Positions 9,294 through 54,406 of a DNA stretch of 64,000 bases are shown here, piece by piece. The notes under the pieces are model-generated. The model saw nothing but the letters and a program-made list of their open reading frames with translations, ran no database searches and was not told where the DNA came from. The translations under genes and the position numbers were made by a program. The stretch's first letter is position 1. The number at the start of each line of letters is the position of its first letter. Origin of the DNA: Methylorubrum sp. B1-46 (GTDB lineage Bacteria; Pseudomonadota; Alphaproteobacteria; Rhizobiales; Beijerinckiaceae). The DNA lies in the NCBI RefSeq assembly GCF_021117295.1, contig NZ_CP088247.1:4727001-4791000 (forward strand), written 5' to 3'.

Positions 9294-10379
9294 ATGCTCG
9301 CCGAATCCGAGACCGCCCTGCCCGACGAGGCGCCGCTCACTGAGGCGCGGATGCGGGCGGCCGTCGCCGCGCGCGATGCCGGCTTCGACGGGTGCTTCGT
9401 CTACGCGGTGCGCTCGACGGGCGTCTATTGCCGGCCGGGCTGCCCGTCGCGGGCGGCGCGGCCCGAAAACCTCTCCTTCCATGCCGGTCCGGCCGAAGCG
9501 GAGTCGGCCGGCTTCCGGCCCTGCCGCCGCTGCCGGCCGGACGAGCCGGCCCCGTCTGAGCGGCAATCGGAACAAATCACCCGCGCCTGCCGGCTGATCG
9601 AGGCGGCGGAGACGCCGCCCTCCCTCGACGCGCTCGCTCGAGCGTCGGGCTTGAGCCCGTTCCACTTCCACCGCGTCTTCAAGGCCGTGACCGGGGTGAC
9701 GCCGGCGGCTTATGCCCAGGCGCACCGCGCGGCCCGCGCCGCCGACAGCCTCGCGGAGGGGAAGAGCGTGACCGAGAGCGTCTACGCGGCGGGCTACGGT
9801 GCGCCGAGCCGGTTCTATGCGGACGGGGCGGAGCGGCTCGGCATGAGCCCGTCGGCCTACCGCAAGGGCGGCGCGGGGGAGCGGATCGCCTTCGCGGTCG
9901 GCCCCTGCGCCCTGGGGCGGGTGCTGGTCGCGGCAACCGGGCGGGGGATCTGCGCGATCCTGCTCGGCGACGACGAAGAGGGGCTCCGGCGCGATCTCGC
10001 AGCGCGCTTCCCCCACGCGGAGATCGCGGAGGGCGCGGCGGATTTCGCGGCGACGGTGGGCGCGGTTGTCCGCCTCGTCGAGACGCCGGGCGCCGCCTTC
10101 GACCTGCCGCTCGACATCGGCGGCACCGCCTTCCAGCAGCGGGTCTGGCAGGCCCTGCGCCGGATTCCGGCCGGCACCACCGCGACCTATGCCGAGATCG
10201 CCCGCGTCATCGGCGCGCCGGCCGCGGTGCGGGCGGTGGCCATGGCCTGCGGCGCCAACGCGCTGGCGGTCGCGATCCCCTGCCACCGGGTGGTGCGCTC
10301 GGACGGGGCGCTCTCAGGGTATCGTTGGGGCACGGCGCGCAAGGCGGCCCTGCTCGCCCGCGAGGGCGGCGAGGGGTAG
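9294..10379 (+). CDS. ada: Ada bifunctional DNA methylation sensor and O6-methylguanine methyltransferase
   Basis: A 361-residue three-domain Ada protein. The N-terminal zinc domain has its four cysteines in GVYCRPGC (about 42-49) and PCRRC (about 77-81); the first becomes methylated by phosphotriesters and switches on transcription activation. An AraC-type helix-turn-helix follows (about 95-180, SLDALARASGLSPFHFHRVF). The C-terminal Ogt domain has the suicide cysteine in IPCHRVV (about 330) that removes methyl groups from O6-methylguanine. The start at 9294 is set by GGAGGAG 2-8 bases upstream. Family knowledge predicts that it activates its own promoter. It ends 4 bases from a convergent gene. 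Confidence 0.95.
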   Translation: MLAESETALPDEAPLTEARMRAAVAARDAGFDGCFVYAVRSTGVYCRPGCPSRAARPENLSFHAGPAEAESAGFRPCRRCRPDEPAPSERQSEQITRACRLIEAAETPPSLDALARASGLSPFHFHRVFKAVTGVTPAAYAQAHRAARAADSLAEGKSVTESVYAAGYGAPSRFYADGAERLGMSPSAYRKGGAGERIAFAVGPCALGRVLVAATGRGICAILLGDDEEGLRRDLAARFPHAEIAEGAADFAATVGAVVRLVETPGAAFDLPLDIGGTAFQQRVWQALRRIPAGTTATYAEIARVIGAPAAVRAVAMACGANALAVAIPCHRVVRSDGALSGYRWGTARKAALLAREGGEG

Positions 10380-10383
10380 GGGA

Positions 10384-11394
10384 TCAGGCCGGCACGGCCG
10401 AACCGGGCGGGGCCGCGTCGGGGCCGGTGGGCGCGTCGGTCGGCGCGCGACCCGCGGCGTGGGCCTTCCGTGCCTGGATCTCGATGAAGACGCGGGTGAC
10501 ATTGCGGCTCTTCGCCTTGATGCGGCTCTCCAGCCGCGCCACCGTCCGCTCGACCTCGCCCGCGGGTACGTCGTCGGCGAAGTCGAGGCTGAGGTTCACC
10601 AAGATGTCGGACGGGCCGAGATGCTGCGTCAGCACCTCGTTGACATGCTGCACGGCCGGCTCCTCCCGCACCGCCGCCTGGATCGTGCGCACAACGTCCG
10701 GGTCGGCGGCCTCGCCGATCAGCAGGCCGTGGGTCTCGATCATCAGGAAGATCGACATGCCGATCAGCACGAGGCCGATCCCGATCGAGGCCCAGCCGTC
10801 GAGCGCCGGCTTGTCGAGCATGTGGGCGAGCACCACGCCGGTCATGGCGATGACGAGGCCGATCAGCGCGGCCACATCCTCGACGAGGATGGTGTAGAGT
10901 GACGGATCCTTGCTGCGGTGGATCGCCGACAGCGCGCCGTGCTCGCCTTTCTCCGCCCAGAACGCCTTGAGCGCGACAAGGCACGAGTACCCCTCGGCCA
11001 GGATGGCGAAGCCGAGGATTGCGACGTTCACCCAGAAGCCGGACAGGTGGACGCCGAACACCGTCGAGTCGGTGATGGGCTCGGGATGCTCGATCTTGTG
11101 CGCGCCCTCGTAGATCGCGAAGATGCCGCCGCCGAGGAAGATGAACAGGGCGACGATGAAGGCGTAGAAATACACCTCGCGCCCGTAGCCGAAGGGATGC
11201 TTGGCATCCGCCGGCTTCTTCGCCCGCTTCAGACCAACGAGCAGCAGGAGCTGGTTGGCGGTGTCGACCAGTGAGTGCGCGCCCTCGGCCAGCATCGCCG
11301 TCGAACCGGTCAGGAAGGCGCCGACGAACTTGGCCGCCGCGATGGCGAGGTTGGCGCCCGCCGCCGTGTAGATCGCACCCGTGCTCTCGGCCAT
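10384..11394 (-). CDS. Cation diffusion facilitator (CDF) family metal exporter
   Basis: A 336-residue inner-membrane transporter with about six membrane segments. The N-terminal segment IAAAKFVGAFLTGSTAMLAEGAHSLVDT carries an H-S-L-V-D metal-site pattern near residues 40-45, and DGWASIGIGLVLIGMSIFLM lies later. The cytoplasmic C-terminal domain (about 245-310) fits the dimerising CDF tail, then an Ala/Pro-rich end follows. CDF proteins export Zn, Co, Fe or Mn in exchange for protons; specificity is not assigned. The variant second site (VEDVAALIG) is typical of the larger FieF-related subgroup. The start at 11394 has GGGAG 7-11 bases upstream. Confidence 0.88.
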   Translation of the reverse strand: MAESTGAIYTAAGANLAIAAAKFVGAFLTGSTAMLAEGAHSLVDTANQLLLLVGLKRAKKPADAKHPFGYGREVYFYAFIVALFIFLGGGIFAIYEGAHKIEHPEPITDSTVFGVHLSGFWVNVAILGFAILAEGYSCLVALKAFWAEKGEHGALSAIHRSKDPSLYTILVEDVAALIGLVIAMTGVVLAHMLDKPALDGWASIGIGLVLIGMSIFLMIETHGLLIGEAADPDVVRTIQAAVREEPAVQHVNEVLTQHLGPSDILVNLSLDFADDVPAGEVERTVARLESRIKAKSRNVTRVFIEIQARKAHAAGRAPTDAPTGPDAAPPGSAVPA

Positions 11395-43356: not shown

Positions 43357-43430
43357 TGGGGGATAGTTTAACGGTAGAACCGCGGACTCTGACTCCGCTA
43401 GTCCTGGTTCGAATCCAGGTCCCCCAGCCA
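43357..43430 (+). tRNA. tRNA-Gln (anticodon CTG)
   Basis: A 74-nt cloverleaf with CCA encoded. The acceptor stem pairs TGGGGGA with TCCCCCA. The anticodon arm is GCGGA-CTCTGAC-TCCGC, giving CTG in the 7-nt loop. The T arm is CCTGG-TTCGAAT-CCAGG. Its 3' 47 bases are duplicated at 54360-54406, showing that a mobile element has integrated here while the tRNA stays intact. Confidence 0.97.
43384..43430 (+). other. Attachment site attL (47-bp direct repeat, tRNA 3' end)
   Basis: The sequence from the anticodon stem to the CCA end is identical to 54360-54406. Bases on either side differ (C versus T before, T versus C after), so the identity ends sharply at 47 bases. Confidence 0.95.
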
Positions 43431-43469
43431 TTGAAAAGACTACGCTTTTTCCAATTCATCGTGAGAACA

Positions 43470-44519
43470 TTACGCCCGGTCGGGAACGCGGTCGGGTGTT
43501 TGCGTTCTCGTTTCGAGCTTGCGGATCGCGGCCAGGGCGAGCGCCGGGTCGCGGTTGAGGTAGTGGGCGTCGAGGATCGACCGAACGTCCGCGAGGCTAT
43601 GCCCCGTGAGAGTTGCGATCTCCGCTTCCGTGCATCCCGCAAGAGCCAGACGGCTTACGGCGGTCCCGCGCAGGTCGTGGAACGTCACGCCACTGATGCC
43701 GGCCGAGCGGCACGCCTTGCCCCATGAGGAGCGGAAGCCGTCGCCGGTCCAGGGCCGCCCCTCGGAGTTGAGCAGGATCACCGGGCTCAGGCGCGGCGCG
43801 GCATCCAGCCGAGTTTTCAGCGCGGCCCCGACCGGCACCACGACCCGCGCGCCCGTCTTCCCCTGCGTCAGACGAATCGTGCTGCCGTCGTAGGCCGACC
43901 AGGGCAGGCGCAGGAGATCTCCTTGGCGCTGTCCGGTCCAGAGGGCCAAGATCAGCGGCAGGTGCAGGTGGGCCGGTGCGCGAGCCAGGAACGCTGCCTC
44001 GTCCGCGTCGGTCCACACCTTGTCGGTTCGTGCGGCCCGGTAGAGCCGCCCTCCTCGCTCGCACGGGTTGGCCAGGACCAAGCCGCGGTCGAGCGCCCAC
44101 GACAGGATGCGCGCCAGCACGCTCCATGCGTAGTCGGCCTGTCGGCGGGAGCGCAGCGCGAGGCGGTCGCGCCATGCCATGAACTCGCCGCGGGTGCGCC
44201 GGTCCGTGAGGGCGCCGAGCGGGAAGTCCCCGAACTCAACCTCGATCGCCTTGATGTGGCGGATGTAGTCGGCTCGGGTCCGCGGCTCCCGGCCGAGAAA
44301 GGCGTCGCTGGCCTGGAAGCCCTGCATGATTGAGAACAAGGTGCCAGCCGCCGGGGTCCGCCGGGCTGTCACCGCCGCGTTGTAGCTCGCCATGAACTCC
44401 GGCGTGCCGGGCTTGCCCTCGATCCGGGGGCCACCCTTCCAGGCGTACCAGTAGGTTCGCTTGGTCCCGTCCGCCAAGACCTTCGTCTTGGAGTTGAGAC
44501 CCTTCAATCTAACGCGCAT
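43470..44519 (-). CDS. Tyrosine recombinase (integrase)
   Basis: A 349-residue phage-type integrase. N-terminal arm-binding and core-binding domains cover about 1-170. The catalytic residues are all present: Arg in TGQRQGD (about 194), Lys in QGKTGARV (about 218), HDLRG (about 280), His in LTGHSLAD (about 305) and the nucleophile Tyr in DAHYLNRD (about 317). It lies 39 bases from the tRNA-Gln site and is convergent with it, the usual place for an integrase that targets that tRNA. It overlaps the 64-aa gene by 11 bases. Confidence 0.95.
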   Translation of the reverse strand: MRVRLKGLNSKTKVLADGTKRTYWYAWKGGPRIEGKPGTPEFMASYNAAVTARRTPAAGTLFSIMQGFQASDAFLGREPRTRADYIRHIKAIEVEFGDFPLGALTDRRTRGEFMAWRDRLALRSRRQADYAWSVLARILSWALDRGLVLANPCERGGRLYRAARTDKVWTDADEAAFLARAPAHLHLPLILALWTGQRQGDLLRLPWSAYDGSTIRLTQGKTGARVVVPVGAALKTRLDAAPRLSPVILLNSEGRPWTGDGFRSSWGKACRSAGISGVTFHDLRGTAVSRLALAGCTEAEIATLTGHSLADVRSILDAHYLNRDPALALAAIRKLETRTQTPDRVPDRA

Positions 44520-44703
44520 TGCGCTTGGCCCTCCATGCGTCGAGTTCGGACGCCGGCTCCGGCCGGACGTCCTCGCTGGGATGGACCACGATCCGATTGC
44601 CGTCGATCTCCACGCGGCCGACCTTGAGGCCGGCGGCCAGCGCGCCCTTCACGGCGCGGGTGATGGCGGCCTGAGTTGCCTTGGGCTGACGGGGCACGGT
44701 CAC
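44509..44703 (-). CDS. Small hypothetical protein in satellite (64 aa)
   Basis: A 64-residue protein (QAAITRAVKGALAAGLKVGR, then VEIDGNRIVVHPSED) that looks like a short alpha-beta domain with a charged tail. It starts at GTG 44703, overlapping the portal stop by 4 bases (GTGA), and runs into the integrase start. The tight overlaps argue that it is translated. I do not recognise the family; its position beside int makes a recombination directionality factor thinkable, but there is no HTH pattern to support it. Confidence 0.7.
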   Translation of the reverse strand: MTVPRQPKATQAAITRAVKGALAAGLKVGRVEIDGNRIVVHPSEDVRPEPASELDAWRAKRNAR

Positions 44704-45935
44704 GCCTCCACCACGGGTGCGGCGGCCGGGGCCGTGTTGCCGAGCGGCATCCAGTTGGCGGGCTGGTGGTAGACATCGCCGTTGGCGATCGGCGGCTCGT
44801 TCTCGCGGCGCCGGATGTCGTTCGGGCTGAAGGCGCCGATCTCACGGCCGAGCCGATAGGCCTCGAACCGGGCCTTCACGTCGCCCCGGAGCAACGTGTC
44901 GAGGTCGTGCTCGACGTAGAGGAATCGGCGCGACACGTCCGTGAGCAGGCATCGCAGCATGGCCGCCTCAATCCGGCCGGCGAGCGGCCCAAGCGCGTTC
45001 TGGACCAGCGCCCGGCCTTCCTGCTCCGTATTGCTGTAGGTGGCCTTGTCCGTGATGCCGACGGAGGTCGGAGGAAGCCCGAAGATCCGGGCCACGTCCT
45101 CGTTCCCGAGCTTGCGGCTGTCGAGGAACTCGGCGTCTTCCGGGGTGAAGGCCATGCGCTCGAACTTGGCGCCGCCGTCCATCACCATCAGCTTGCCGGC
45201 CTTGTCCGACCCGACGTAGCGCTCCTCCATGCTCTTGCGGACCTGGATGCGCTGCTCGGGCGTCAGGCGTTCGGCGAACGAGAGGATGCCGGAGGGGCGC
45301 AGGCTGTTGGCCGAGAGAGCCGACGCCGTATCGTGATTCGTGAGGGCGAGGCCGAGGGAGCCCCGCGAAATCGAGATGGGGCTTTGCCCGAGGATGCCGT
45401 CGCGGGAAGGGCCGCGCAGGTGCAGCATCTCTTCCTGCAGGAGGATGTAGGGGGCACCGCGTTCCTGACTGACACGGTAGCGCAGCCGGCCGGAGGCGAG
45501 CCGTTCCACGCCAACGGAGAGCGGCGCCAGCGGGTAGAGCGCCGTCACCTGCCCGCGGGCGTTCCGCTCGATCCGGGCGTAGGCGTTGCCCGTCAGGTCG
45601 AGCGAGCGCACCAGAAACTCCCGCGCTTCGAACGCCGTCATGTTCGGGTTGGCGATATCATGGAGCACGCCGTAGAGCGGGTTGTCGTCGGCCCGCTCCC
45701 GGCCGCCGTTCTCGGTGCGCCGGTAGAGGTAGAGGCCGACGCTCGCCATCATCTCGGAGCGCAGCGCCACGCACCGGGCCGCTACCGCGAGGTTGGAGAG
45801 CACGGCGTCGGGCGTGACGGTGCCGCCCCGGCCCTGTATCCCGAAGAATTCGCCGAGGTAGGGATCGGACAGGCGCACGTCGCCCTCGCCGGCGGCGCGC
45901 GTCTCGGTTCCGAACAGGCGTGCCAGGATGCCCAT
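44700..45935 (-). CDS. HK97-type phage portal protein
   Basis: A 411-residue portal protein, the dodecameric ring through which DNA enters the capsid. VTPDAVLSNLAVAARCVALR, SEMMASVGLYLYRR, AFEAREFLVRSLDLTGNAYA and the internal LGNEDVARIFGLPPTSVG are HK97-portal features. YVEHDLDTLLRGDVKARFEA is also typical near the C-terminus. It follows the protease by one base and overlaps the 64-aa gene. Being downstream of capsid and protease is the reverse of the common portal-protease-capsid order. Confidence 0.95.
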   Translation of the reverse strand: MGILARLFGTETRAAGEGDVRLSDPYLGEFFGIQGRGGTVTPDAVLSNLAVAARCVALRSEMMASVGLYLYRRTENGGRERADDNPLYGVLHDIANPNMTAFEAREFLVRSLDLTGNAYARIERNARGQVTALYPLAPLSVGVERLASGRLRYRVSQERGAPYILLQEEMLHLRGPSRDGILGQSPISISRGSLGLALTNHDTASALSANSLRPSGILSFAERLTPEQRIQVRKSMEERYVGSDKAGKLMVMDGGAKFERMAFTPEDAEFLDSRKLGNEDVARIFGLPPTSVGITDKATYSNTEQEGRALVQNALGPLAGRIEAAMLRCLLTDVSRRFLYVEHDLDTLLRGDVKARFEAYRLGREIGAFSPNDIRRRENEPPIANGDVYHQPANWMPLGNTAPAAAPVVEA

Positions 45936-45936
45936 C

Positions 45937-46476
45937 TTAGCTCCGAAGGGTGTCGAGGTAGCGGGCGGCGAGCGCCAGGCGGTGGCCGGCCGGCGGCGCC
46001 GCCGAGCGGGCTTGGACGATGGTGCCAGGGTAGGCGGGCAGCGCCTGGATCACGCTGATTTCGAAGAGCGTGACGGCGCGCAGCTCGCGCTTCTCCCCGG
46101 ACCATGCCTCCCCGCCCGGGGACGCCGTGAAGCCGAAGGACATGCCGCCGAGATCGCCCCGCTCGGCGAGCGCCAGGATGTCCCGGCCGATGCTGGTGTC
46201 CGGCACGTCGAGGTCGAAGGCGAGCCCGCGGGTATCCTCCGCGAGCCGCAGGGTGCCGGACCGGGTGCGGGCCAGGACCCGGCTCGGGTCGTGATCCACC
46301 AGGGCCAGCACGTCCCGGCCGAGCGAGTCCTTGAACGCGCCCGCCCGGATCGTTTCGGAGAAGGTGCCGATGCGGGCCTCCACTCCGAAGAGCGCAGCGT
46401 GCCCCTCCAGGCGCCGGCCCTTGGCCCGCACCTCGATCGAGGCGGAACGGCGCTCGGGGGGTGCCGCGTCGGTCAT
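45937..46476 (-). CDS. HK97 family prohead protease
   Basis: A 179-residue serine protease that matures the procapsid. EGHAALFGVEARIGTFSETI and RAGAFKDSL open the domain. The His in LVDHDPSRVLAR (about 59) and the Ser in GGMSFGF (about 112) are the expected catalytic residues. It overlaps the capsid gene by 4 bases (ATGA) and leads straight into the portal gene. Confidence 0.93.
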   Translation of the reverse strand: MTDAAPPERRSASIEVRAKGRRLEGHAALFGVEARIGTFSETIRAGAFKDSLGRDVLALVDHDPSRVLARTRSGTLRLAEDTRGLAFDLDVPDTSIGRDILALAERGDLGGMSFGFTASPGGEAWSGEKRELRAVTLFEISVIQALPAYPGTIVQARSAAPPAGHRLALAARYLDTLRS

Positions 46477-47732
46477 GCCGTCTTCGCGTCCTTCACGGCC
46501 ACGAAGTTCTCGACATGCCGGGTCGCCACATCGGCGTCGAGGAAGGCGTGGAGCAGCAAGCCGCCCTTGGACGCCACATCCGCGTGGTAGGGGTTCGGGA
46601 CGATATCGACGCTCGACCAGTAGCCGATGATGAGGTCCGACCAGATGCCGTAGATCGCGGCCGAGAGGTTGGTCCCGGTGCCCTTGGTCAGGTTGCTCGG
46701 CAGCGCCTTGGAAACCCGCACCGGCTCGTTGGAGAACACCGTGGCGAGGCCGTAGGGCTGGCCCTGCCCGTCCTTCATCTTGAGCGCCGCGGTGCGAATG
46801 GCCTTGGTGATGAGGAAGCCTCGGTTCCCGTCCGCATCGTCGTCGATCGCCGCGATCATGTCGGCCGCCGTATCGATCGAGAGCACGCCGCCGTTGGTGC
46901 CCAGAGGCAGGACGTTGAGGCCCGGCGTGGCGAGGATGCCGACCGGCTCGTTGGTGCCGCCGCCCTGGATCGCCGCGGCGTCAAGGGCCTGCCGGAGCAG
47001 GAAGGCGATGTCCGCGCGCAGGATCGGTTCCAGCGCCGTCGCCTGGAGCAGCATCCGGCGGGAGACCTCGTACTCGGCGCCGACCGTCTTCGGCCCCATG
47101 CTCACCTTGTCGAACTTCATGTCCGACCGGGTGACGTTGCCGTGCTCCGGCACCCAGAACGCCTGCCCCGAATCCTTCACCCGCGGGAGATCGAGGTTGC
47201 CGGTCAGGCCGCGCAGCACCGTGGCGCCCAGGCTCTCCGTCACCAGCGTCGGGCGTACCCGGTCGATGAGGGCACCCTGCTGGGTCGGGACAAGGTTGCC
47301 GCCGGGGCCGGCCGCCGGGCTGGTGGTGAGCAGCGCGCGGGTCTCGCCCATGAAGGCAGAGACGGGCATGGCGATGGCACCCTGCCGGCCGGAACGGTGT
47401 TCGGCGGCCCACTCGGCCTCGGCTCCGGTGAGGCGGCCGTTCTCGACGTACTCGGCCAGGGCCTTGGCCGGGCTGTAACGGACCTCGATGTCCGCCATGT
47501 CGTTGTGCCGCTCGCCGACCGGCTCGGCCTCGGCGCGGCGCTCGGCATCGGCCAGGAACTCATGGTTCCGTATCTCGCGTTCCAGGCGCTCGACCTCGCC
47601 CTTGCCGGTGTCGAAGGCGGACTGCTCCGCGTCGTTCAGGTCACGGTTCTCGGTCGCCGCCTTGGCGTGGATGGCGCGGATCGCATCGACCTTCAGGCCG
47701 CGCTGCTCGCGAAGTTGGATGAGGGTGCGCAT
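46473..47732 (-). CDS. HK97-type major capsid protein
   Basis: A 419-residue capsid protein. Residues 1-75 are a charged coiled coil (the delta/scaffold domain, NDAEQSAFDTGKGEVERLER) removed by the prohead protease. The shell domain has GGNLVPTQQGALIDRVRP, EYEVSRRMLLQATALEPILR, AAIQGGGTNEPVGILATPG and the C-terminal GYWSSVDIVPNPYHAD, all typical of HK97-type shells. It is the first gene of the capsid-protease-portal-64aa-int block. A small particle sized for an 11-kb genome would be expected if it behaves like known satellites, but size cannot be read from the sequence. Confidence 0.95.
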   Translation of the reverse strand: MRTLIQLREQRGLKVDAIRAIHAKAATENRDLNDAEQSAFDTGKGEVERLEREIRNHEFLADAERRAEAEPVGERHNDMADIEVRYSPAKALAEYVENGRLTGAEAEWAAEHRSGRQGAIAMPVSAFMGETRALLTTSPAAGPGGNLVPTQQGALIDRVRPTLVTESLGATVLRGLTGNLDLPRVKDSGQAFWVPEHGNVTRSDMKFDKVSMGPKTVGAEYEVSRRMLLQATALEPILRADIAFLLRQALDAAAIQGGGTNEPVGILATPGLNVLPLGTNGGVLSIDTAADMIAAIDDDADGNRGFLITKAIRTAALKMKDGQGQPYGLATVFSNEPVRVSKALPSNLTKGTGTNLSAAIYGIWSDLIIGYWSSVDIVPNPYHADVASKGGLLLHAFLDADVATRHVENFVAVKDAKTA

Positions 47733-47753
47733 GATGATCTATCCTTCCCGCCG

Positions 47754-48224
47754 TTACTCGCGCTCGCCGATGATCGACCGCTCTTCCTCGGTGTAGTGCG
47801 CGATCAACTTGCGCATCTTCTCGATGTTGAAGGTCGTGGTCTTACGAACATCGTGGCCGCTGAACATGGCCGTGTCCCACTGAGCAGGATCGGGCACGAT
47901 GTCGGATGGCCACGCACTGCCGTGATCGGGGCCGAAGTAGCTCTGCACGTAGGTGATCGCCGGGGCCTCGGGGTGAGCACGGGCGGCGTTGCTGACCTCG
48001 CACGCGATGGCGCCTGCGCGAGCGGCGTTGAGGCCGTCGTCCAGCAGTTCGCGGAACAGGTAGAGGCCGATCATGTCGTCCGGATCGAAGAGGCGCGCCT
48101 TGCCGGCGGTGGTGGCGGGGGCGCAGGGGTATCGGCCGGCGGCGACGTGCTCGTTGAAGCGGTCGCGGTCGATGCGGGCCACGCGGCACGCGGCGAGGGG
48201 TGTGAGCTTCGGTGCAATCGTCAT
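47754..48224 (-). CDS. MerR-like helix-turn-helix protein (possible satellite regulator)
   Basis: A 156-residue protein. Residues about 8-85 resemble a MerR/AlpA-type winged helix: an HTH start (LAACRVARIDRDRFNEHVAAG), then ARLFDPDDMIGLYLFRELLD and DGLNAARAGAIACEV. The C-terminal half is not recognised. It lies 21 bases upstream of the capsid gene, so it may activate or repress the head-gene block, or it could be a divergent small terminase, which also begin with an HTH. GAGG upstream supports the start at 48224; a longer frame to 48251 is possible. Confidence 0.65.
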   Translation of the reverse strand: MTIAPKLTPLAACRVARIDRDRFNEHVAAGRYPCAPATTAGKARLFDPDDMIGLYLFRELLDDGLNAARAGAIACEVSNAARAHPEAPAITYVQSYFGPDHGSAWPSDIVPDPAQWDTAMFSGHDVRKTTTFNIEKMRKLIAHYTEEERSIIGERE

Positions 48225-48246
48225 GGCAGGGCTACCTCTTGGTTCG

Positions 48247-48291
48247 AACAATAGGTAGTCCTGCCTCTTGGGAAACGCAAGAGCGATTGTT
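48247..48291. promoter_or_regulatory. Nested inverted repeats upstream of the MerR-like gene
   Basis: An inner repeat CTCTTG-7-CAAGAG (48265-48283) lies within an outer AACAAT / ATTGTT pair (48247-48252 and 48286-48291). The region is AT-richer and precedes the MerR-like gene, so it is a candidate operator/promoter. MerR-type operators are dyads with long spacers. Confidence 0.45.
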
Positions 48292-48349
48292 GGCGGACTG
48301 AATAATTTCCAGAGGCTTTAGGCAGCGTATGCCGCAGCCGAAGCCGGGA

Positions 48350-48757
48350 TCACGCGCATAGCGTGCCCTCCTCGGCCATCTCACGCAGGAACGCCATCAA
48401 GGCGCGCTCACCCGCATTGGCCTCGAGATCGCCCCCAAGATTTTCTCGAAACTCACAGAGCAGGAGGCGAGCCTTGGCTGATAGGTCGCCTAGACAGCTC
48501 GCCTTCTCAGTCGCCGACCTTTCGAGAGCTGCGTCGAAAGCCATGTTTTCGGCGGTGATACGCTCATCAGGCCAGCATTCATCCGGCTCGTCGTTCTCAT
48601 TGACGTACCGCAATCGAGCAACGGCCGCGTCGCAGGCGCGAGCGAGGTCGGAAGGCACATTGGCCGCCGAAGCACTGCCGATGAGCGTCACGCCGCCGCC
48701 GATGAGCGGAAGCGTGGTGAGGCCGCGGAGGAAGCCGCGTCGAGAAGCCGGCGCCAT
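48350..48757 (-). CDS. Small protein with Tat-like signal peptide (135 aa)
   Basis: A 135-residue protein beginning APASRRGFLRGLTTLPLIGG, a good twin-arginine motif with a hydrophobic core ending in SASA, which predicts Sec-independent export. The mature part (about 105 residues) is acidic, helical and has three cysteines, including ones near CWPDE and CLGDL. No family is recognised. The start overlaps the stop of the 63-aa gene (TGATG); GTG at 48760 is an alternative. An exported protein is unusual in a capsid satellite and could act at the cell envelope. Confidence 0.7.
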   Translation of the reverse strand: MAPASRRGFLRGLTTLPLIGGGVTLIGSASAANVPSDLARACDAAVARLRYVNENDEPDECWPDERITAENMAFDAALERSATEKASCLGDLSAKARLLLCEFRENLGGDLEANAGERALMAFLREMAEEGTLCA

Positions 48758-48948
48758 CACGCGGCCTCCCCAGAAACCGGGGCGTCGAAATCGACCGAGA
48801 GGTCGATGCCGGCGAAAAACTCCTCCAGCCCCTCACGGATCGCGGCGATGGGATCGCACTCGCCCCGGCCGGCCGTGATGGCGGCGGAGACGGGCCCGCC
48901 GCTTGCGATGATCTTGGGCGCAGGTGTGCTATGGGCTTGGTCAGCCAT
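48757..48948 (-). CDS. Small hypothetical protein in satellite (63 aa)
   Basis: A 63-residue acidic protein (begins MADQAHSTPAPKIIASGG, then CDPIAAIREGLEEFFAGIDL) without a recognised domain. The start at 48948 has a perfect AGGAG 7 bases upstream. It is the first gene of the leftward small-protein operon, facing the RHH gene across an 85-base region with a 12-bp inverted repeat. Confidence 0.7.
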   Translation of the reverse strand: MADQAHSTPAPKIIASGGPVSAAITAGRGECDPIAAIREGLEEFFAGIDLSVDFDAPVSGEAA

Positions 48949-49015
48949 TTCGATCTCCTGACGATCGCGGTGGTTAGGGCCGTCTCGGTGTTCCACCACC
49001 GTTGCGGCCCGCTCT

Positions 49016-49064
49016 ATTTTCTGTCATCAGATAATGATGGCGTCAATACCCAATGACAGAAAAT
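49016..49064. promoter_or_regulatory. 12-bp inverted repeat, candidate RHH operator
   Basis: ATTTTCTGTCAT (49016-49027) is the exact reverse complement of ATGACAGAAAAT (49053-49064), with 25 bases between. It lies between two divergent small genes and overlaps the start of the RHH gene (ATG 49034), as expected for an autoregulated repressor. Confidence 0.65.
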
Positions 49065-49228
49065 CACGAGGCCGGCCGAAAGTCGGAGCAACGCACGTCG
49101 GTGTGCGCATTCCTCCCGATCAGCTTGCGGCCCTTGATGCCTGGATAGTTGCTCAAGCGGATCCGAAGCCGTCTAGGCCCGAAGCTATCCGTCAGCTTGT
49201 AGAACTTGCATTGCGAGCACAGAGATGA
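49034..49228 (+). CDS. Ribbon-helix-helix (CopG/Arc-like) DNA-binding protein
   Basis: A 64-residue RHH protein: a basic N-terminus (NDRKSRGRPKVGATHVGVRI), a beta strand (HVGVRI), helix 1 (PDQLAALDAWIVAQA), then SRPEAIRQLVELALRAQR as helix 2. Probably a repressor of the operon with the gene that follows (ATGA overlap). The start ATG (49034 or 49037) has no good ribosome site and sits inside an inverted repeat, so translation may be leaderless or start elsewhere. GC content is lower than in flanking genes. Confidence 0.75.
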   Translation: MMASIPNDRKSRGRPKVGATHVGVRIPPDQLAALDAWIVAQADPKPSRPEAIRQLVELALRAQR

Positions 49229-49563
49229 ACCCGGAAGAGATCGCACAGGTGCAAATGCAGCAAATTGCCCAGATGATGGCGCTGCAATTGATTATGCAAA
49301 ACATAATTGCTGGGCAAATCGTACAATCCTCAATTGACAGCACGAAGGAAGCGGAGGTCCGGCAGTTAGCCTCTGAGCTTTCCAACATGCTGAACGAGGC
49401 TGCCGAGCGGGCTCTGGGTCAGATGAAAAGCACGCCAGAAGGCCAGTACGTTTTCTCAATCGTGTCTGATACGATCAAGAAAGTGTATGAGCAAGCCGGA
49501 GAGCAGGTTGTACAGACTTCGGCGATGCATTTTGGCGAGATGCCGTCGAAGTCTGCCAACTAA
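49225..49563 (+). CDS. Hypothetical Gln/Met-rich helical protein paired with the RHH gene (112 aa)
   Basis: A 112-residue protein, mostly amphipathic helix, rich in Gln and Met at the N-terminus (QVQMQQIAQMMALQLIMQNI), then a charged helical part with Glu and Lys. No family is recognised and no catalytic motif is seen. GC content is about 42-53% by line, far below the rest of the window. It overlaps the RHH gene by 4 bases, like a toxin following an RHH antitoxin, although it lacks toxin-like features. It is oriented opposite to the head and replication genes and its stop overlaps the terL stop by 4 bases. Candidate cargo of the satellite. Confidence 0.65.
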   Translation: MNPEEIAQVQMQQIAQMMALQLIMQNIIAGQIVQSSIDSTKEAEVRQLASELSNMLNEAAERALGQMKSTPEGQYVFSIVSDTIKKVYEQAGEQVVQTSAMHFGEMPSKSAN

Positions 49564-51188
49564 ACAAAGTCGCACATGGGGCTCCACTCCGCCTCTGGCT
49601 CGTGGCGGTTCGCCGCCCCGAGCGCCATGGCGAGGGCCTGAAGCCCGTCGATCCGGCCCGTGCTCTTCTTCTTGTCGAACTTCCGGTTCCCGGCCGGATC
49701 GGGGACCGTCTTCGCATTGCCGGCGCACCACGTCAGGACCGGGTGCATCCCGTGCCGTAGCTTCGCCTCCACCGCGAGGCGTTCCAGCACGTCGATTGCC
49801 GGGCTCATGTCCTTGAACCCCTGCCCCCACTCCACCAGCGGCACCTCCGCGCCGATCGCGCCCAACTCGCGGCGCAGGTCCTCGATCCGCCAGCGGTCGT
49901 AGGCCAGGGCCGTGAAGCCGAAGCGGCCATGCAGTTCGGCGATCTTGCGGGCGATCACCTCCGGGTCCGTCGTCTTCCCCGGCATGGTGAGCAGGAAGCC
50001 CGCGTCCCGCCACTGGACGTAGGGCACCCGGTCGGTGTCCTCCCGCTCGCGGAGATCGTCGTCGGGGAGCCAGAAGAACGGCACCACGTCGTATCCGCCA
50101 TCCTCGTCCTCGAACACGAGCACTAGGGCCGTGAGGTCGCGCGAGGCCGCCAGATCGAGCGCGGCGTGGCAGGGCCGGCCCTTGAGGGTGTCGAGATCGG
50201 GCACCGCCTCGCCGCAGGCCTTCCAGACCGGCACGGTGAGGAACTGCTGGGTCGCGTCCACCCGCTGATTCAGGATCAGGTTGCGGAACGAGGCCTCTCG
50301 GCTCGGCATCCGCTGCGCCTGCGAGGCGAGGCGCTGAACGTCCTCCAGGGACCGGAAGTCGGCGAGCGCCGGGTTAGCGGCCTTCCACGTCGCCCGCTCC
50401 CACGGATCGGCGTCGAGGGGCGCCGAGTAGAGCGTGAGGTGGAAGCTCGCGTCCTTCACCTCGCCCCGGTTCACCCGGAGCCCGTAGTCGACCAATTCGG
50501 ACATCGGCGCTTCGTCCCGCGCCGCCTGGGTCGAGATGACCACGCTCAGCGGCTCGCCGCGGGCACCCATGGCGGTGTCGAGCGTGTCGTAGAGATCCCG
50601 GCTCGGCGACTGCCCCAACTCGTCGTAGATCCACATCGACGGCGAGAGGCCGTGCTTCGTCGCCACGTCGGCCGAGAGCGCCGCGAACACGGTGCCGGTG
50701 CCGCCGATGTCCTCCAACTCCTTCGAGTGCCGCCGGATCGAGATGCGCTCCGAGAGCCACGGCACCCGCTCGATGAGGGCACAGATCTCCGAGAAGATGC
50801 GCCCCGCCTGGAAGCGGTCGTTGGCCGCCGAGTAGACCTCGCCGCGCTCCTCCGCCTCCGGCCCCGCGATGTGGCAGAGGGCGAGGCGGGCCGCCACGTC
50901 CGTCTTCCCGTTCTTCCGGGCCATCGAGAGCACGGCGGTTCGCACCTGCCGCCGGCCGCGCCGGTCGGTGGCGTAGACCGCTTTCAGGAACTTCCGCTGC
51001 CACGGCCGGACCCGGAACGTCGTACCGGCGAGTGCGCCCGACGTGACGGGCAGGCTCTCCATGAAGGCGATGACGCGCTCCGCCCTCGTGAGGCCTTCCG
51101 CCTCCCACGTGTGCGGTTCCGATGACGCCTCGGCGACGGGATCGGACGGCCTTTTGATGGGCTTCGCGCCGGGGCCACGCTGTCCCAT
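49560..51188 (-). CDS. Phage terminase large subunit
   Basis: A 542-residue packaging motor. The ATPase domain has Walker A MARKNGKTD (about 88-96), Walker B WIYDELG (about 183) and a coupling segment VVISTQAARDE. The nuclease domain has ALDLAASRDLTALVL (about 342) and ends in GRIDGLQALAMALGAANR (about 510), where acidic residues bind metal. It belongs to the HK97-type TerL group. It follows the HNH gene (TGATG overlap). An upstream TerS gene is normally expected but is not recognisable. Its stop overlaps a convergent gene's stop. Confidence 0.95.
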   Translation of the reverse strand: MGQRGPGAKPIKRPSDPVAEASSEPHTWEAEGLTRAERVIAFMESLPVTSGALAGTTFRVRPWQRKFLKAVYATDRRGRRQVRTAVLSMARKNGKTDVAARLALCHIAGPEAEERGEVYSAANDRFQAGRIFSEICALIERVPWLSERISIRRHSKELEDIGGTGTVFAALSADVATKHGLSPSMWIYDELGQSPSRDLYDTLDTAMGARGEPLSVVISTQAARDEAPMSELVDYGLRVNRGEVKDASFHLTLYSAPLDADPWERATWKAANPALADFRSLEDVQRLASQAQRMPSREASFRNLILNQRVDATQQFLTVPVWKACGEAVPDLDTLKGRPCHAALDLAASRDLTALVLVFEDEDGGYDVVPFFWLPDDDLREREDTDRVPYVQWRDAGFLLTMPGKTTDPEVIARKIAELHGRFGFTALAYDRWRIEDLRRELGAIGAEVPLVEWGQGFKDMSPAIDVLERLAVEAKLRHGMHPVLTWCAGNAKTVPDPAGNRKFDKKKSTGRIDGLQALAMALGAANRHEPEAEWSPMCDFV

Positions 51189-51592
51189 CAGCGGCCTCCC
51201 CGAAACTTAGTGCGCGATCGACTACCCATGCGGTCCCGCCCCCTAAGCGGCTGGTCCTTCGAGGGGGTATACCCCTTGCTAGGACCGCCGAAGAACGGGT
51301 GCGAGGGGTCCACAGGCAGGCCGGAGGCGTCGCAGCCGGGGAAGGCCACTCCAGATCCCCCTGCCCTGTCCACGGCCCGTGTCTTGGCGTTGTGACAGGC
51401 AGGGCACATGGACATCAGGCCGGAGAGCGGAGGGAAGGCCGGGCCGCCCTTCGCGATGCTGGTACGATGGTCCACCGTGTTGGCTGGCACCGTGCGTCCC
51501 CGCTTCTCGCAGGGCTCACAGATGGGCGAGGCCTGGAGCTTCGCCGCTCGCAACGCCTTCCACTCGGACGTGCCGTAGGGCCACTTAGCCAT
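51188..51592 (-). CDS. HNH endonuclease (packaging-associated)
   Basis: A 134-residue nuclease. Zinc-binding CxxC pairs CEPCEKRG and CPACHNAK flank VDHRTSIAKGGPAF, the catalytic HNH segment. HNH proteins encoded beside TerL assist DNA cleavage during packaging in HK97-type phages. The C-terminus is basic. It overlaps the 55-aa gene upstream and TerL downstream, so all are probably co-translated. Confidence 0.92.
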   Translation of the reverse strand: MAKWPYGTSEWKALRAAKLQASPICEPCEKRGRTVPANTVDHRTSIAKGGPAFPPLSGLMSMCPACHNAKTRAVDRAGGSGVAFPGCDASGLPVDPSHPFFGGPSKGYTPSKDQPLRGRDRMGSRSRTKFRGGR

Positions 51593-51752
51593 GTGCCACC
51601 TCCCGAGCGATCAGGCGCAGGGCGTGCACGATCTCGCTCTTCTCCTCGTGGAAGCGCTCGGGGTTGCGGGAGGACGGAGCCAGCCGGCGCAGGCGTTCGG
51701 CGAGATCCGTGAGGGCATGGGCCGGGGGCGGCCGGAGGCGTGCGCTCTTCAT
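51585..51752 (-). CDS. Very small protein between helicase and HNH genes (55 aa)
   Basis: A 55-codon reading frame: starts MKSARLRPPPAHALTDLAER, then LRRLAPSSRNPERFHEEKSE, ending in REVAHG. Its ATG overlaps the helicase stop (ATGA, 4 bases) and its stop overlaps the HNH start by 8 bases, so both ends are fixed by neighbours and it is almost certainly translated. It is basic and helical, without a known family; a packaging or replication accessory role fits the context. Confidence 0.75.
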   Translation of the reverse strand: MKSARLRPPPAHALTDLAERLRRLAPSSRNPERFHEEKSEIVHALRLIAREVAHG

Positions 51753-53227
51753 CGGCTCGCCCCCTCGGTGATGTGGATCAGGCGCGTGACCCTGCTGGCG
51801 TTAGACGCTCTGGTAGCCTCGATCCTGATGAGGCCACGCTGCTCCAGCTCCTGCAGGATCGGGTCTCGCACCTCCTGCGCCCGGATGTGCTTGGGCGCGT
51901 GGCTGGTGATGAGGCGGGCGTTCACCGGCTGCTCGGTACGGGAGCGGAGCCAGTTTAGGAACTCGGTGGCCGGGGCCGAAAGCCCGGTGTCAGGCGCACC
52001 GATCACATCGGCACCGTCGATCACATCGATCACAAGATCACAAGCGGACGTATCGCAGATCGCGGCTTGTGACTCCGTGATGGGGGCGGGATCACAAACG
52101 GGCACGTCGCAGACTGGTGCGAGATACGGCTCTGCCCCCTTATCGCTGCTGATCGCAGGCGGGTTTGTGATCTTGTGATCGTTGTGATCGGGGGTACGGT
52201 TGTGATCGGGATGCAGATATCGGCCGCGACCGGCTTTGATGACCTCGCCGGCCTTGACCATGCTCACCAGCAACTGCCGGACGTTCTGGTTCGACATCCG
52301 GGTCGCGTCCGAGATCTCCCCGGGTGACAGAGGCTCCTCTGCCTCATCCAGGGCCGCCAGGATCGAGCCACGTTCGTCCGTGCGCCGGACCTCGCTCGCC
52401 TCGCCCTGGACCAGCCAGCGGCAGGCCACCTTGTCGAAGACGACGGCGCTCTCGATCTCCTCGATGTCGCGGCCCCGGCCGTAGAGCGTCGCCCCGTTGC
52501 CGTCCCGGTCGAGGATAACCACGCTGTCGGCTGCGCCGGAGAGCCCGAGGGTGCCAGAGACCTTCTCGAACGGATCGCTCTCAGACCCGCTTTTCCGGGT
52601 GTGGTGCACGATGACGATCGCCACGCCGAACTCGCCCGCGAGGGCCTGGAGGCCTTTGATCGAGAGGTAATCGGCCTCGTACAGGCTCTCCTTGTCGCCG
52701 CGCACCGGCTTGAACATCGCGAGCACGTCCACGACGACGAGGCGCGGGTTCTCCTTCGACATGATCCATTCGCGGATGGCGTCGATGCCACCCTCGTTGG
52801 CACGGGGCCACTCGGTGGCGAACTCGAACGCCGCCGGCCACTCCTCCGTGAAGGCGCCGAGCACCTTGTCCATACGGCGCTGGAGACGACGGGCGTTGTC
52901 CTCGAGCGCGAGGTACAGCACGTCGCCCTGCTCGCAGCCGATGCCGCCGAGGCAGTCGCCGCCGCGCGCTACGGCGAGTCCCGCCTCCAGCACCAGCCAC
53001 GACTTGCCGAGCTTGGGCCGGCCCGCCAGGAGCGTGCAGCCCTCGGCGATGTATCCGGGAACCACGTAGCGGATCGGATCGAACTCCCGGCGGCGCAGCT
53101 CGGCGGCCGAGAAGATAACGGGCTTCACGGGGGTTTTAGCCCCACTGCGGGGCGCTCTCGCGTCTGAGGATGCCCCGCGGGCGTAGGGCGCGCCGCGCTC
53201 GATGGTGTAGCCGTGCTGCTCAAGCAT
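51749..53227 (-). CDS. RepA-like AAA helicase with C-terminal winged helix
   Basis: A 492-residue protein. Residues about 45-270 form a RecA/AAA_25 fold like hexameric RepA helicases: Walker A GRPKLGKSW (about 66), Walker B LVVVDVLAM (about 161) and VHHTRKSG (about 207). Two winged-helix-like stretches follow (about 290-335, SPGEISDATRMSNQNVRQLL; and about 430-492). Between them the linker (about 340-410) is low in complexity and is coded by DNA dense in GATCACA repeats. With the Toprim primase it would drive autonomous replication of the excised satellite. Overlaps the primase by 8 bases. Confidence 0.88.
   Translation of the reverse strand: MLEQHGYTIERGAPYARGASSDARAPRSGAKTPVKPVIFSAAELRRREFDPIRYVVPGYIAEGCTLLAGRPKLGKSWLVLEAGLAVARGGDCLGGIGCEQGDVLYLALEDNARRLQRRMDKVLGAFTEEWPAAFEFATEWPRANEGGIDAIREWIMSKENPRLVVVDVLAMFKPVRGDKESLYEADYLSIKGLQALAGEFGVAIVIVHHTRKSGSESDPFEKVSGTLGLSGAADSVVILDRDGNGATLYGRGRDIEEIESAVVFDKVACRWLVQGEASEVRRTDERGSILAALDEAEEPLSPGEISDATRMSNQNVRQLLVSMVKAGEVIKAGRGRYLHPDHNRTPDHNDHKITNPPAISSDKGAEPYLAPVCDVPVCDPAPITESQAAICDTSACDLVIDVIDGADVIGAPDTGLSAPATEFLNWLRSRTEQPVNARLITSHAPKHIRAQEVRDPILQELEQRGLIRIEATRASNASRVTRLIHITEGASR
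52001..52207. repeat. Nine heptamer iterons in two opposed arrays (candidate replication origin)
   Basis: GATCACA occurs at 52001, 52019, 52028, 52036 and 52090; its reverse complement TGTGATC at 52166, 52174, 52183 and 52201 (start positions). Seven of nine extend to GATCACAA. A 69-base centre separates the two arrays. The copies fall in different reading frames of the helicase gene, so the pattern is DNA-level. A heptamer (both strands) is expected about once per 8 kb by chance. Confidence 0.8.
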
Positions 53228-54116
53228 GGTGCGCCCCCTGGTACAGGTCGTTGAGATCCGCGCCGGGGACGGCCGGCGTGATGAGGTAGGTTTCGGCGCC
53301 GGAGGCCTGCCAGCGGTCGGCGCAGGCGCGGGTAGCCCGGAGCCCGGCCGGGTCGTGATCGACCGCGAGCCACAGCGTCTCGATGCCGGAGAGCACGGGG
53401 AAGGTGCTGATGCCGCCGGCCGCCAACAGGGACCACACGGACGATTCCCCGAACTCGGGGGACCTTCGGAGCGAGAGGGTGGATTCGATCCCCTCCCCGA
53501 TCCCGAGGCAGGTGGTCACGTTCTCATCGGCGGTGAGCTTCACGGCCCCGCCGCCGATCGGCCCGAGCGCCAGGCGGTCGGCGCCGTTCACCTCGACCTT
53601 GATGCCCTGGAAACTCAGGGCAGTGCGGTGGATTGCGACGGGGGCGTTGGTCACGATGTCTCGCACCAGCGCGACCATGGCCGGGGTGCGGGTGCCCGCG
53701 AAGGGGCAAGCCGAGTGGTAGCGCAGGACCTCGGCGGAATCGGCAGGCAGGCTCAGACCTCGGCCCGACAGATACGTCTCCACGGGGGTGCCGGCCGGGT
53801 GCCGAGCCTCTGTCCAGATCGCCAGGGCGCGCGCGGTGCGGTCGCCCGATCCGGGGACCTCAACTGGGGGCGACGCAAAATTGCGTTCTGCCTGGAAATC
53901 GTCGGGTAGCCGTAACCGCTGCCGCACGTAGTCCTTTGCGGCAAGGGGATCGTCTCCCGCGAAGGAATGGACGACGAGGCCGCCGGGCGAGCGCGGGTCG
54001 AGGCGGACGGAGAGCGAGCGGTCGCGGGAGCTATGGCCGGGACCGGGGCACAGGATCTGCCCGATACCAGCCACCTCGCCGCCGAGGTCGCGAGCCATGG
54101 CGCGGAGGTCGGTCAT
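53220..54116 (-). CDS. Toprim-domain primase-like protein
   Basis: A 298-residue protein. The N-terminal part (about 1-60, with ILCPGPGHSSRDRSLSVRL) resembles the zinc-finger-like region of phage/satellite primases but has only a single clear Cys. ALAIWTEARHPAGTPVETYL precedes the Toprim domain: GIGEGIEST (catalytic Glu, about 203) and LAVDHDPAG (Asp pair, about 250). It makes primers for the helicase encoded next. Its start overlaps the 63-aa gene by 4 bases (ATGA). Confidence 0.88.
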   Translation of the reverse strand: MTDLRAMARDLGGEVAGIGQILCPGPGHSSRDRSLSVRLDPRSPGGLVVHSFAGDDPLAAKDYVRQRLRLPDDFQAERNFASPPVEVPGSGDRTARALAIWTEARHPAGTPVETYLSGRGLSLPADSAEVLRYHSACPFAGTRTPAMVALVRDIVTNAPVAIHRTALSFQGIKVEVNGADRLALGPIGGGAVKLTADENVTTCLGIGEGIESTLSLRRSPEFGESSVWSLLAAGGISTFPVLSGIETLWLAVDHDPAGLRATRACADRWQASGAETYLITPAVPGADLNDLYQGAHHA

Positions 54117-54304
54117 ACCGTGCCTCCGATCTCAATGGACGCGACCGCCGTCTCGCGGTAGGTTCCGTGTCCGAAGGCTCCTTCCCAGATGCTTTCTCGA
54201 CATCCGCCGTTCTGGGCTCCAACCCCCAGGGCGGCGGTTTCATTTCCGGGGTCCGGCGGCCCGTTTCCGGTGGACGTTCCCGTTCTAACCCATTGGTCCG
54301 TCAT
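54113..54304 (-). CDS. Small hypothetical protein heading the replication operon (63 aa)
   Basis: A 63-residue Gly/Thr-rich protein (MTDQWVRTGTSTGNGPPDPG at the N-terminus, ending ETAVASIEIGGTV) without a recognised family. The start at 54304 is preceded by GGAGG with 9 bases between, and its stop overlaps the primase start (ATGA). It is the first gene from the right attachment site, 56 bases inside. Confidence 0.7.
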   Translation of the reverse strand: MTDQWVRTGTSTGNGPPDPGNETAALGVGAQNGGCRESIWEGAFGHGTYRETAVASIEIGGTV

Positions 54305-54359
54305 GATCGCTTTCCTCCGTATTCGGAGAAAAAGCGCAGTATTTTCAAAGCTTAGGGAT

Positions 54360-54406
54360 GGACTCTGACTCCGCTAGTCCTGGTTCGAATCCAGGTCCCC
54401 CAGCCA
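54360..54406 (+). other. Attachment site attR (47-bp copy of the tRNA-Gln 3' end)
   Basis: Identical to 43384-43430 and ends in the CCA. The 5' half of the tRNA is missing here, so this is not a second tRNA gene. Confidence 0.95.

Follow-up and report, generated by a model that had tools for sequence, protein, structure and literature searches.

The window, by which we mean the whole analysed stretch of 64,000 nucleotides, carries an integrated element of 11,023 bp flanked by an exact 47-bp direct repeat (Table 1). The first-pass annotation had described a capsid-forming satellite of about 11 kb in tRNA-Gln, and its boundaries were confirmed: the 3' part of the tRNA-Gln(ctg) gene is the first copy of the repeat. 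The integrase, primase, helicase, HNH, TerL, capsid, protease and portal genes that it listed are all present and open at the places it gave. About 96% of the element is coding, and the intergenic gaps sum to 436 bp within the 10,929 bp that the repeats enclose. The GC content of the element is 67.7% versus 69.6% and 71.2% in the flanks, and the host genome has a size of 5.5 Mb. Some gene details were mended, as two small genes lie on the forward strand (one of them of the RHH type) and a MerR-like gene precedes that of the capsid. The true start of this MerR-like gene is probably about nine codons inside the open reading frame, giving a protein of 156 aa. For the 64-aa protein next to the integrase, an excisionase-like role is our guess. 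The TerL matches HK97-group phages at 46.5-46.9% among the first matches listed.

Table 1. Features of the integrated element (positions in the window)
Feature	Position	Strand	Evidence
tRNA-Gln (ctg), integration target	43357..43430	+	ARAGORN
att repeat copy 1, 47 bp, within tRNA	43384..43430	.	exact repeat
Tyrosine integrase, 349 aa	43470..44519	-	PF00589 E 1.2e-11; phrog_1 E 9.6e-38
Conserved small protein of 64 aa, located between portal and integrase	44509..44703	-	37/137 sequences including window; no PHROG match
Portal protein, 411 aa	44700..45935	-	PF04860 E 1.7e-95
Prohead protease S78, 179 aa	45937..46476	-	PF04586 E 4.4e-35
HK97-type major capsid protein, 419 aa	46473..47732	-	PF05065 E 3.2e-24; phrog_617 E 4.5e-49
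MerR-type DNA-binding protein	47754..48251	-	
Small protein, twin-arginine-like N-terminus	48350..48760	-	no PHROG or Pfam match
ORF of 80 aa, no assigned function	48757..48999	-	2/137 sequences including window
RHH/CopG-like repressor, 64 aa	49034..49228	+	phrog_4738 transcriptional repressor E 4.9e-7; 24/137 sequences
ORF of 112 aa, no assigned function, overlapping repressor gene	49225..49563	+	window alone among 137 sequences
Terminase large subunit (TerL), 542 aa	49560..51188	-	TerL_ATPase and TerL_nuclease
HNH endonuclease, 134 aa	51188..51592	-	PF01844, phrog_2323
Small conserved protein, 55 aa	51585..51752	-	33/137 sequences
AAA_25 (RepA-like) helicase, 492 aa	51749..53227	-	PF13481 E 2.9e-29
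DUF7146 and Toprim primase, 298 aa	53220..54116	-	PF23639, PF13362
att repeat copy 2, 47 bp, far end of element	54360..54406	.	exact repeat

Tail or lysis families were recognised neither in the ten main proteins (Pfam and PHROGs) nor in the nine small open reading frames (PHROGs). The first-pass annotation had named such genes among the small proteins as one finding that would overturn it. It had also reported that no TerS gene is visible, and none was recognised in the 19 scanned proteins except for a weak match of the HNH protein to phrog_4581 (E 3.9e-5) over its HNH part; because TerS is divergent, the element may carry one that escapes recognition. Profiles of the gp6-like connector and the head-tail adaptor, run with filters off, gave no match in the window, and from capsid to integrase only the 64-aa gene remains beside the protease and portal genes. 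As connectors were not found here, a helper would also have to supply the neck and bind the satellite portal with it.

To place the element, relatives were collected by a capsid search, which gave 516 among 8,000 scored candidates; more than ten, among 120 listed, are on contigs of 10-11 kb. Species genomes yielded 56 loci, by title all from Alphaproteobacteria except one MAG titled only Proteobacteria. Of 229 stretches matched on viral contigs, 207 encode a relative; the 80 best were retained. The annotated set comprised 137 sequences, namely 136 capsid-fetched loci and the window (L001, L002 and L006 were left out), and the annotation profiles were built from the window and from L004/L005. 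Every sequence has the capsid by construction, and a protease was found in all 137 as well; the counts for portal, integrase, TerL, HNH and the gp6-like connector are 136, 127, 112, 105 and 101, many of the sequences being cut contigs. Most members share an order in which the replication genes are followed by HNH, TerL, some small genes, a gene that is MerR-like or of another kind, and the capsid gene; protease and portal come next, with gp6, where present, ahead of the protease and the adaptor, where present, behind the portal, and the integrase stands last. The integrase is found at the opposite end in some members and is absent from L019, L059 and L065.

A flanking repeat of at least 15 bp beside the integrase was found in 50 of the 137 sequences, the window included. 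All 50 elements measure 9.3-11.3 kb, within a search range that permitted roughly 7.5-15 kb; the 24 repeats of only 15-19 bp may include some that arose by chance, and certain genome loci recur among the viral contigs. For the 26 elements with repeats of at least 20 bp, the median is 10,163.5 bp (range 9,598-11,262). A tRNA is found at a repeat in 38 of the 50. Portal and protease are present in 50 each, and TerL and HNH in 48 each (capsid and integrase by construction), while the gp6-like connector is found in 39 and the head-tail adaptor in nine. The narrow size range fits a head of fixed volume. Uniform size across many hosts and sites makes tail loss from larger prophages hardly likely, and the larger sister prophages that the first-pass annotation had set as a counter-test do not appear among these relatives.

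The nearest relatives, L007 (11,114 bp) and L008 (10,813 bp), resemble the window element in core genes and size. A capsid with 89% identity is found in a record of Methylobacterium sp. J-078. Among 111 genomes of the host genus, its own included, a capsid match of E 1e-100 or better occurs in five and any match at E 0.001 in 21. Capsids of isolated phages are distant (77 records; 23.5-32.8% identity in the best 20 of the 77 listed). In the capsid tree, 133 of 135 family capsids, including that of the window, form one clade (support 0.934) without the five phage and two GTA (gene transfer agent) capsids used. The suggestion of a distinct lineage is supported.

The relatives were also scanned for tail genes. 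The 267 unassigned open reading frames of the 50 elements fall into 197 clusters, 196 of them outside the window, and 149 of these 196 representatives (at least 75 aa; 47 short ones were left out) were compared with PHROGs and Pfam. Among the matches listed (25 of 71 PHROG and 25 of 27 Pfam families), tail families trace to one protein, L033:3349-5028. This is a tape-measure-like protein of 559 aa, encoded immediately within the repeat of an Aquisalinus MAG element that is tail-less in all other respects, and no relative of it was found among the open reading frames of the other sequences. With the short frames left out and the listed families only, a rare tail gene in some relative could be missed. 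One SieB-like match (E 1.8e-4) is the only hint of superinfection functions among the matches listed.

Two relatives without an integrase, L193 (G130:C33) and L065, carry capsid and portal genes and, by eye, a ParA-like gene. The family profiles for integrase and TerL give no match in them. Their terminal overlaps of 111 and 114 bp suggest circles near 10.1 and 10.6 kb, that is, plasmid-form relatives.

Several known systems resemble the element. Like capsid-forming PICIs (cf-PICIs, e.g., EcCIEDL933), it is integrative, has its own capsid, protease, portal, TerL and HNH genes, an integrase and a site-specific att, and shows no recognised tail genes. The definition of cf-PICIs, as given in PMC10690885, includes head-tail connectors, said to be self-made; these were not found in the window and are variable in its relatives, and TerS is unrecognised here. 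The average cf-PICI size stated in PMC10803314 is 14 kb, against 9.3-11.3 kb in the family, and the main hosts named in that account do not include Alphaproteobacteria, to which the family belongs. The HK97 order is portal, protease, capsid, whereas that of the family is capsid, protease, portal. Compared by published description, the element is best read as working like a cf-PICI. Since connectors were not found, TerS is unrecognised and the order is unlike that of HK97, we do not file it as one, and the membership in cf-PICI proper that had first been proposed is not retained. The broader proposal is supported, namely an integrative satellite in Methylobacterium that makes heads and has no recognised tail genes.

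Candidate PICIs of Mycobacterium and phiRv1/phiRv2-like elements likewise combine integrase, capsid and replication genes, and in the account of PMC10654092 three of the four drawn occupy tRNA sites and the satellite role is putative. They differ in belonging to Actinobacteria, and the likeness is one of description (PMC10654092). The Streptomyces satellites MulchRoom and MiniFlayer also have their own terminase, portal and capsid, and the tail of MulchRoom is suggested to be helper-derived from its length in EM and the absence of tail genes; unlike the present element, they have virulent helpers, terminal repeats, TerS and scaffold, as described in PMC10690885. RcGTA-like agents have HK97-type head genes and occur in many of the same hosts, and their terL is the attB of one sub-lineage of the family. 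In contrast to the family, they package host DNA according to PMC7947584. In the capsid tree, moreover, both of the included GTA capsids are separate from those of the satellites. Neither this family nor satellites in GTA terL are described in the titles or opening lines of abstracts among the matches listed in the open-licence literature, which is weak evidence of absence.

The insertions of relatives in GTA genes are the most unexpected result and the most promising one to follow. Related satellites lie inside GTA terL in Bosea (L060), Pararhizobium (L021), a MAG and several metagenomes, and those with capsid, portal, TerL and protease there are L060, L021, L034, L197, L199, L200 and L201. 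In L060 and L021, GTA terL precedes the satellite, and GTA-type portal, protease (L060) and capsid genes come after it. The upstream terL part in L060, L021 and L034 ends 1-10 residues past the core, and the lost C-terminal part is found behind the integrase, in a frame of its own. With the L060 integrase as query, 19 viral loci were found, of which 12 (L196-L207) show the displaced terL part and seven do not; L196 and L203 repeat the L060 and L021 elements, and L201 and L202 seem to be a single element. Once L034 is added, there are 12 distinct cases: the seven named above, two partial (L198, L204) and three without a satellite capsid (L205-L207). Six distinct elements measured inside terL are 10,184-10,752 bp long. 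One conserved codon stretch of GTA terL serves as the insertion site in L060, L021, L034, L196-L207 and L219.

The cut removes about 37 residues compared to the intact host TerL, and the alignments end at 421 of 458 in seven of the eight viral loci with an upstream part. In the Terminase_6C match, the cut TerLs of L060 and L021 stop at 132 and 131 of 155, while the intact host TerL reaches 154. The capsids of L197, L199, L200 and L201 form a second lineage (support 1.0) outside the clade of 133; the site at GTA terL was thus occupied by two capsid lineages or more. It is also used by elements that have related integrases and bear tail genes, at least L205 (tape measure) and L206 (tape measure, baseplate hub and neck protein). 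Related integrases were found in four of 397 sampled genomes of the order and at GTA terL in one of these 397. In G619, a cut terL lies beside a related integrase in opposite orientation on a contig that ends soon after. According to PMC11409702, Agrobacterium and one strain of Rhizobium have a lysozyme gene in the interval from GTA terL to the portal gene.

The element is real, intact and mobile-looking, belongs to a large compact family and is a new variant of head-making satellites. We consider it an integrative satellite from a lineage of Alphaproteobacteria, one that builds and packs a small head of its own and borrows tails (probability about 0.77). Its gene content, att sites, conservation in the family and narrow size range are directly observed and form the grounds for this reading. 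Excision, packaging, transfer and the helper are the parts that we infer. The integrase would excise an 11-kb circle from tRNA-Gln, which the primase and AAA_25 helicase would replicate. Capsid, protease and portal would assemble a procapsid, and HNH and TerL may cut and package the element DNA by a cos mechanism, as is the case for HK97-type terminases. A tailed helper would provide neck proteins, tail and lysis, and the MerR-like and RHH proteins are likely the switches. Head-making, tail-borrowing satellites would thereby come to include a family in Alphaproteobacteria that is large, compact and uniform. As the neck proteins are variably kept, the head-tail junction of satellites becomes comparable over many natural variants.

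The host contains two candidate helpers, its GTA and a phage-plasmid-like contig. That ordinary tailed phages help the family, as with EcCIEDL933, and that the link to GTAs is a shared integrase target, is the version we favour as probable. There is a cf-PICI precedent with helpers foreign to the host, as described in PMC11389934. Furthermore, the integrase type and the site are shared with tail-bearing elements, satellites are found in hosts without the GTA_TIM marker, and contig C4 of the host (16 kb) has TerL, portal, tape-measure-like and tail-terminator genes. On the other hand, a helper phage was identified for no member here. Contig C4 (L176, 16,127 bp) also carries ParA; it has no exact terminal overlap and, by eye, a capsid gene may span the contig ends.

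Alternatively, the host's own GTA could be the helper, with the satellite head taking GTA tails and leaving by GTA lysis. The window genome has a GTA_TIM marker with a portal gene about 10 kb away, and a PF10145 tape measure was not found in it. GTA_TIM is above the cut-off in 37 of 50 satellite-bearing genomes (50 of 56 were tested, and three of the 37 are the GTA-inserted ones) versus 40 of 387 in a class sample; the two samples differ in kinship, the latter spanning many families, so the contrast is suggestive only. The seven satellites within GTA terL, the Terminase_6C end cut in L060 and L021, and the two capsid lineages common to the site point in the same direction. However, the marker was not found in 13 of the 50, and the tail-bearing L205 and L206 indicate that the site may be a mere integrase target. 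Only one of the 397 sampled order genomes was seen with a related integrase there, and the window element itself lies in a tRNA gene of a genome whose GTA TerL looks intact. We regard a GTA helper as unlikely. A family of GTA satellites, one sub-lineage of which disarms the GTA by integrating into its terminase gene, is equally doubtful; such an insertion removes the end of the nuclease domain and would stop host-DNA packaging and free tails. If this were true, a gene-exchange device of the host would become the vehicle of a selfish element. The repeated terL insertion permits a direct test of whether selfish elements parasitise or silence GTAs.

That the element is an autonomous virus, tail-less and independent of any helper tail, is improbable. 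Of the virions in Bradyrhizobium cultures whose shape was icosahedral or doubtful, 71% looked tail-less, with heads of about 20-80 nm, and tail loss is also weighed in the same account (PMC11599138). The satellite family is one candidate source of the small particles without tails that have been described in cultures of rhizobia. Against such a virus, no entry or lysis gene was recognised in the window copy, and the gp6-like connectors and adaptors of its relatives would make little sense if no tail were attached. Tail loss from a degenerating prophage would account for head genes of prophage type and the missing tail, and is the least credible explanation given the intact genes of the window, the nearly equal size and core genes of L007 and L008, the compact size and core content shared by the 50 repeat-flanked elements with their many tRNA targets, and the fact that neither broken genes nor larger sister prophages were met.

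Two further identities were rejected. GTAs have a tail cluster and are not known to carry an integrase, whereas the element has an integrase and att sites and no recognised tail gene. A tailed temperate phage is contradicted by the fact that no tail or lysis module was recognised. In G567:C11 (about 455601-464436), a weakly satellite-like capsid (E 1e-48) and a GTA_TIM gene are separated by about 7 kb; this locus is perhaps a phage with a GTA-like tail.

The small protein at 48350..48760 has 119 homologues, the named ones from Methylobacterium or Methylorubrum, and for most of them the likeness is confined to about a quarter of the query. Its N-terminus carries what we take to be a twin-arginine-like motif. 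The pattern is found in seven unassigned open reading frames, and inspection by eye adds the window protein and those of L205-L207; outside the window, the sequences that encode small proteins of this kind are L023, L085, L026, L029, L039, L040, L099 and L205-L207. They sit upstream of capsid or integrase, both in satellites and in the tail-bearing elements of GTA terL.
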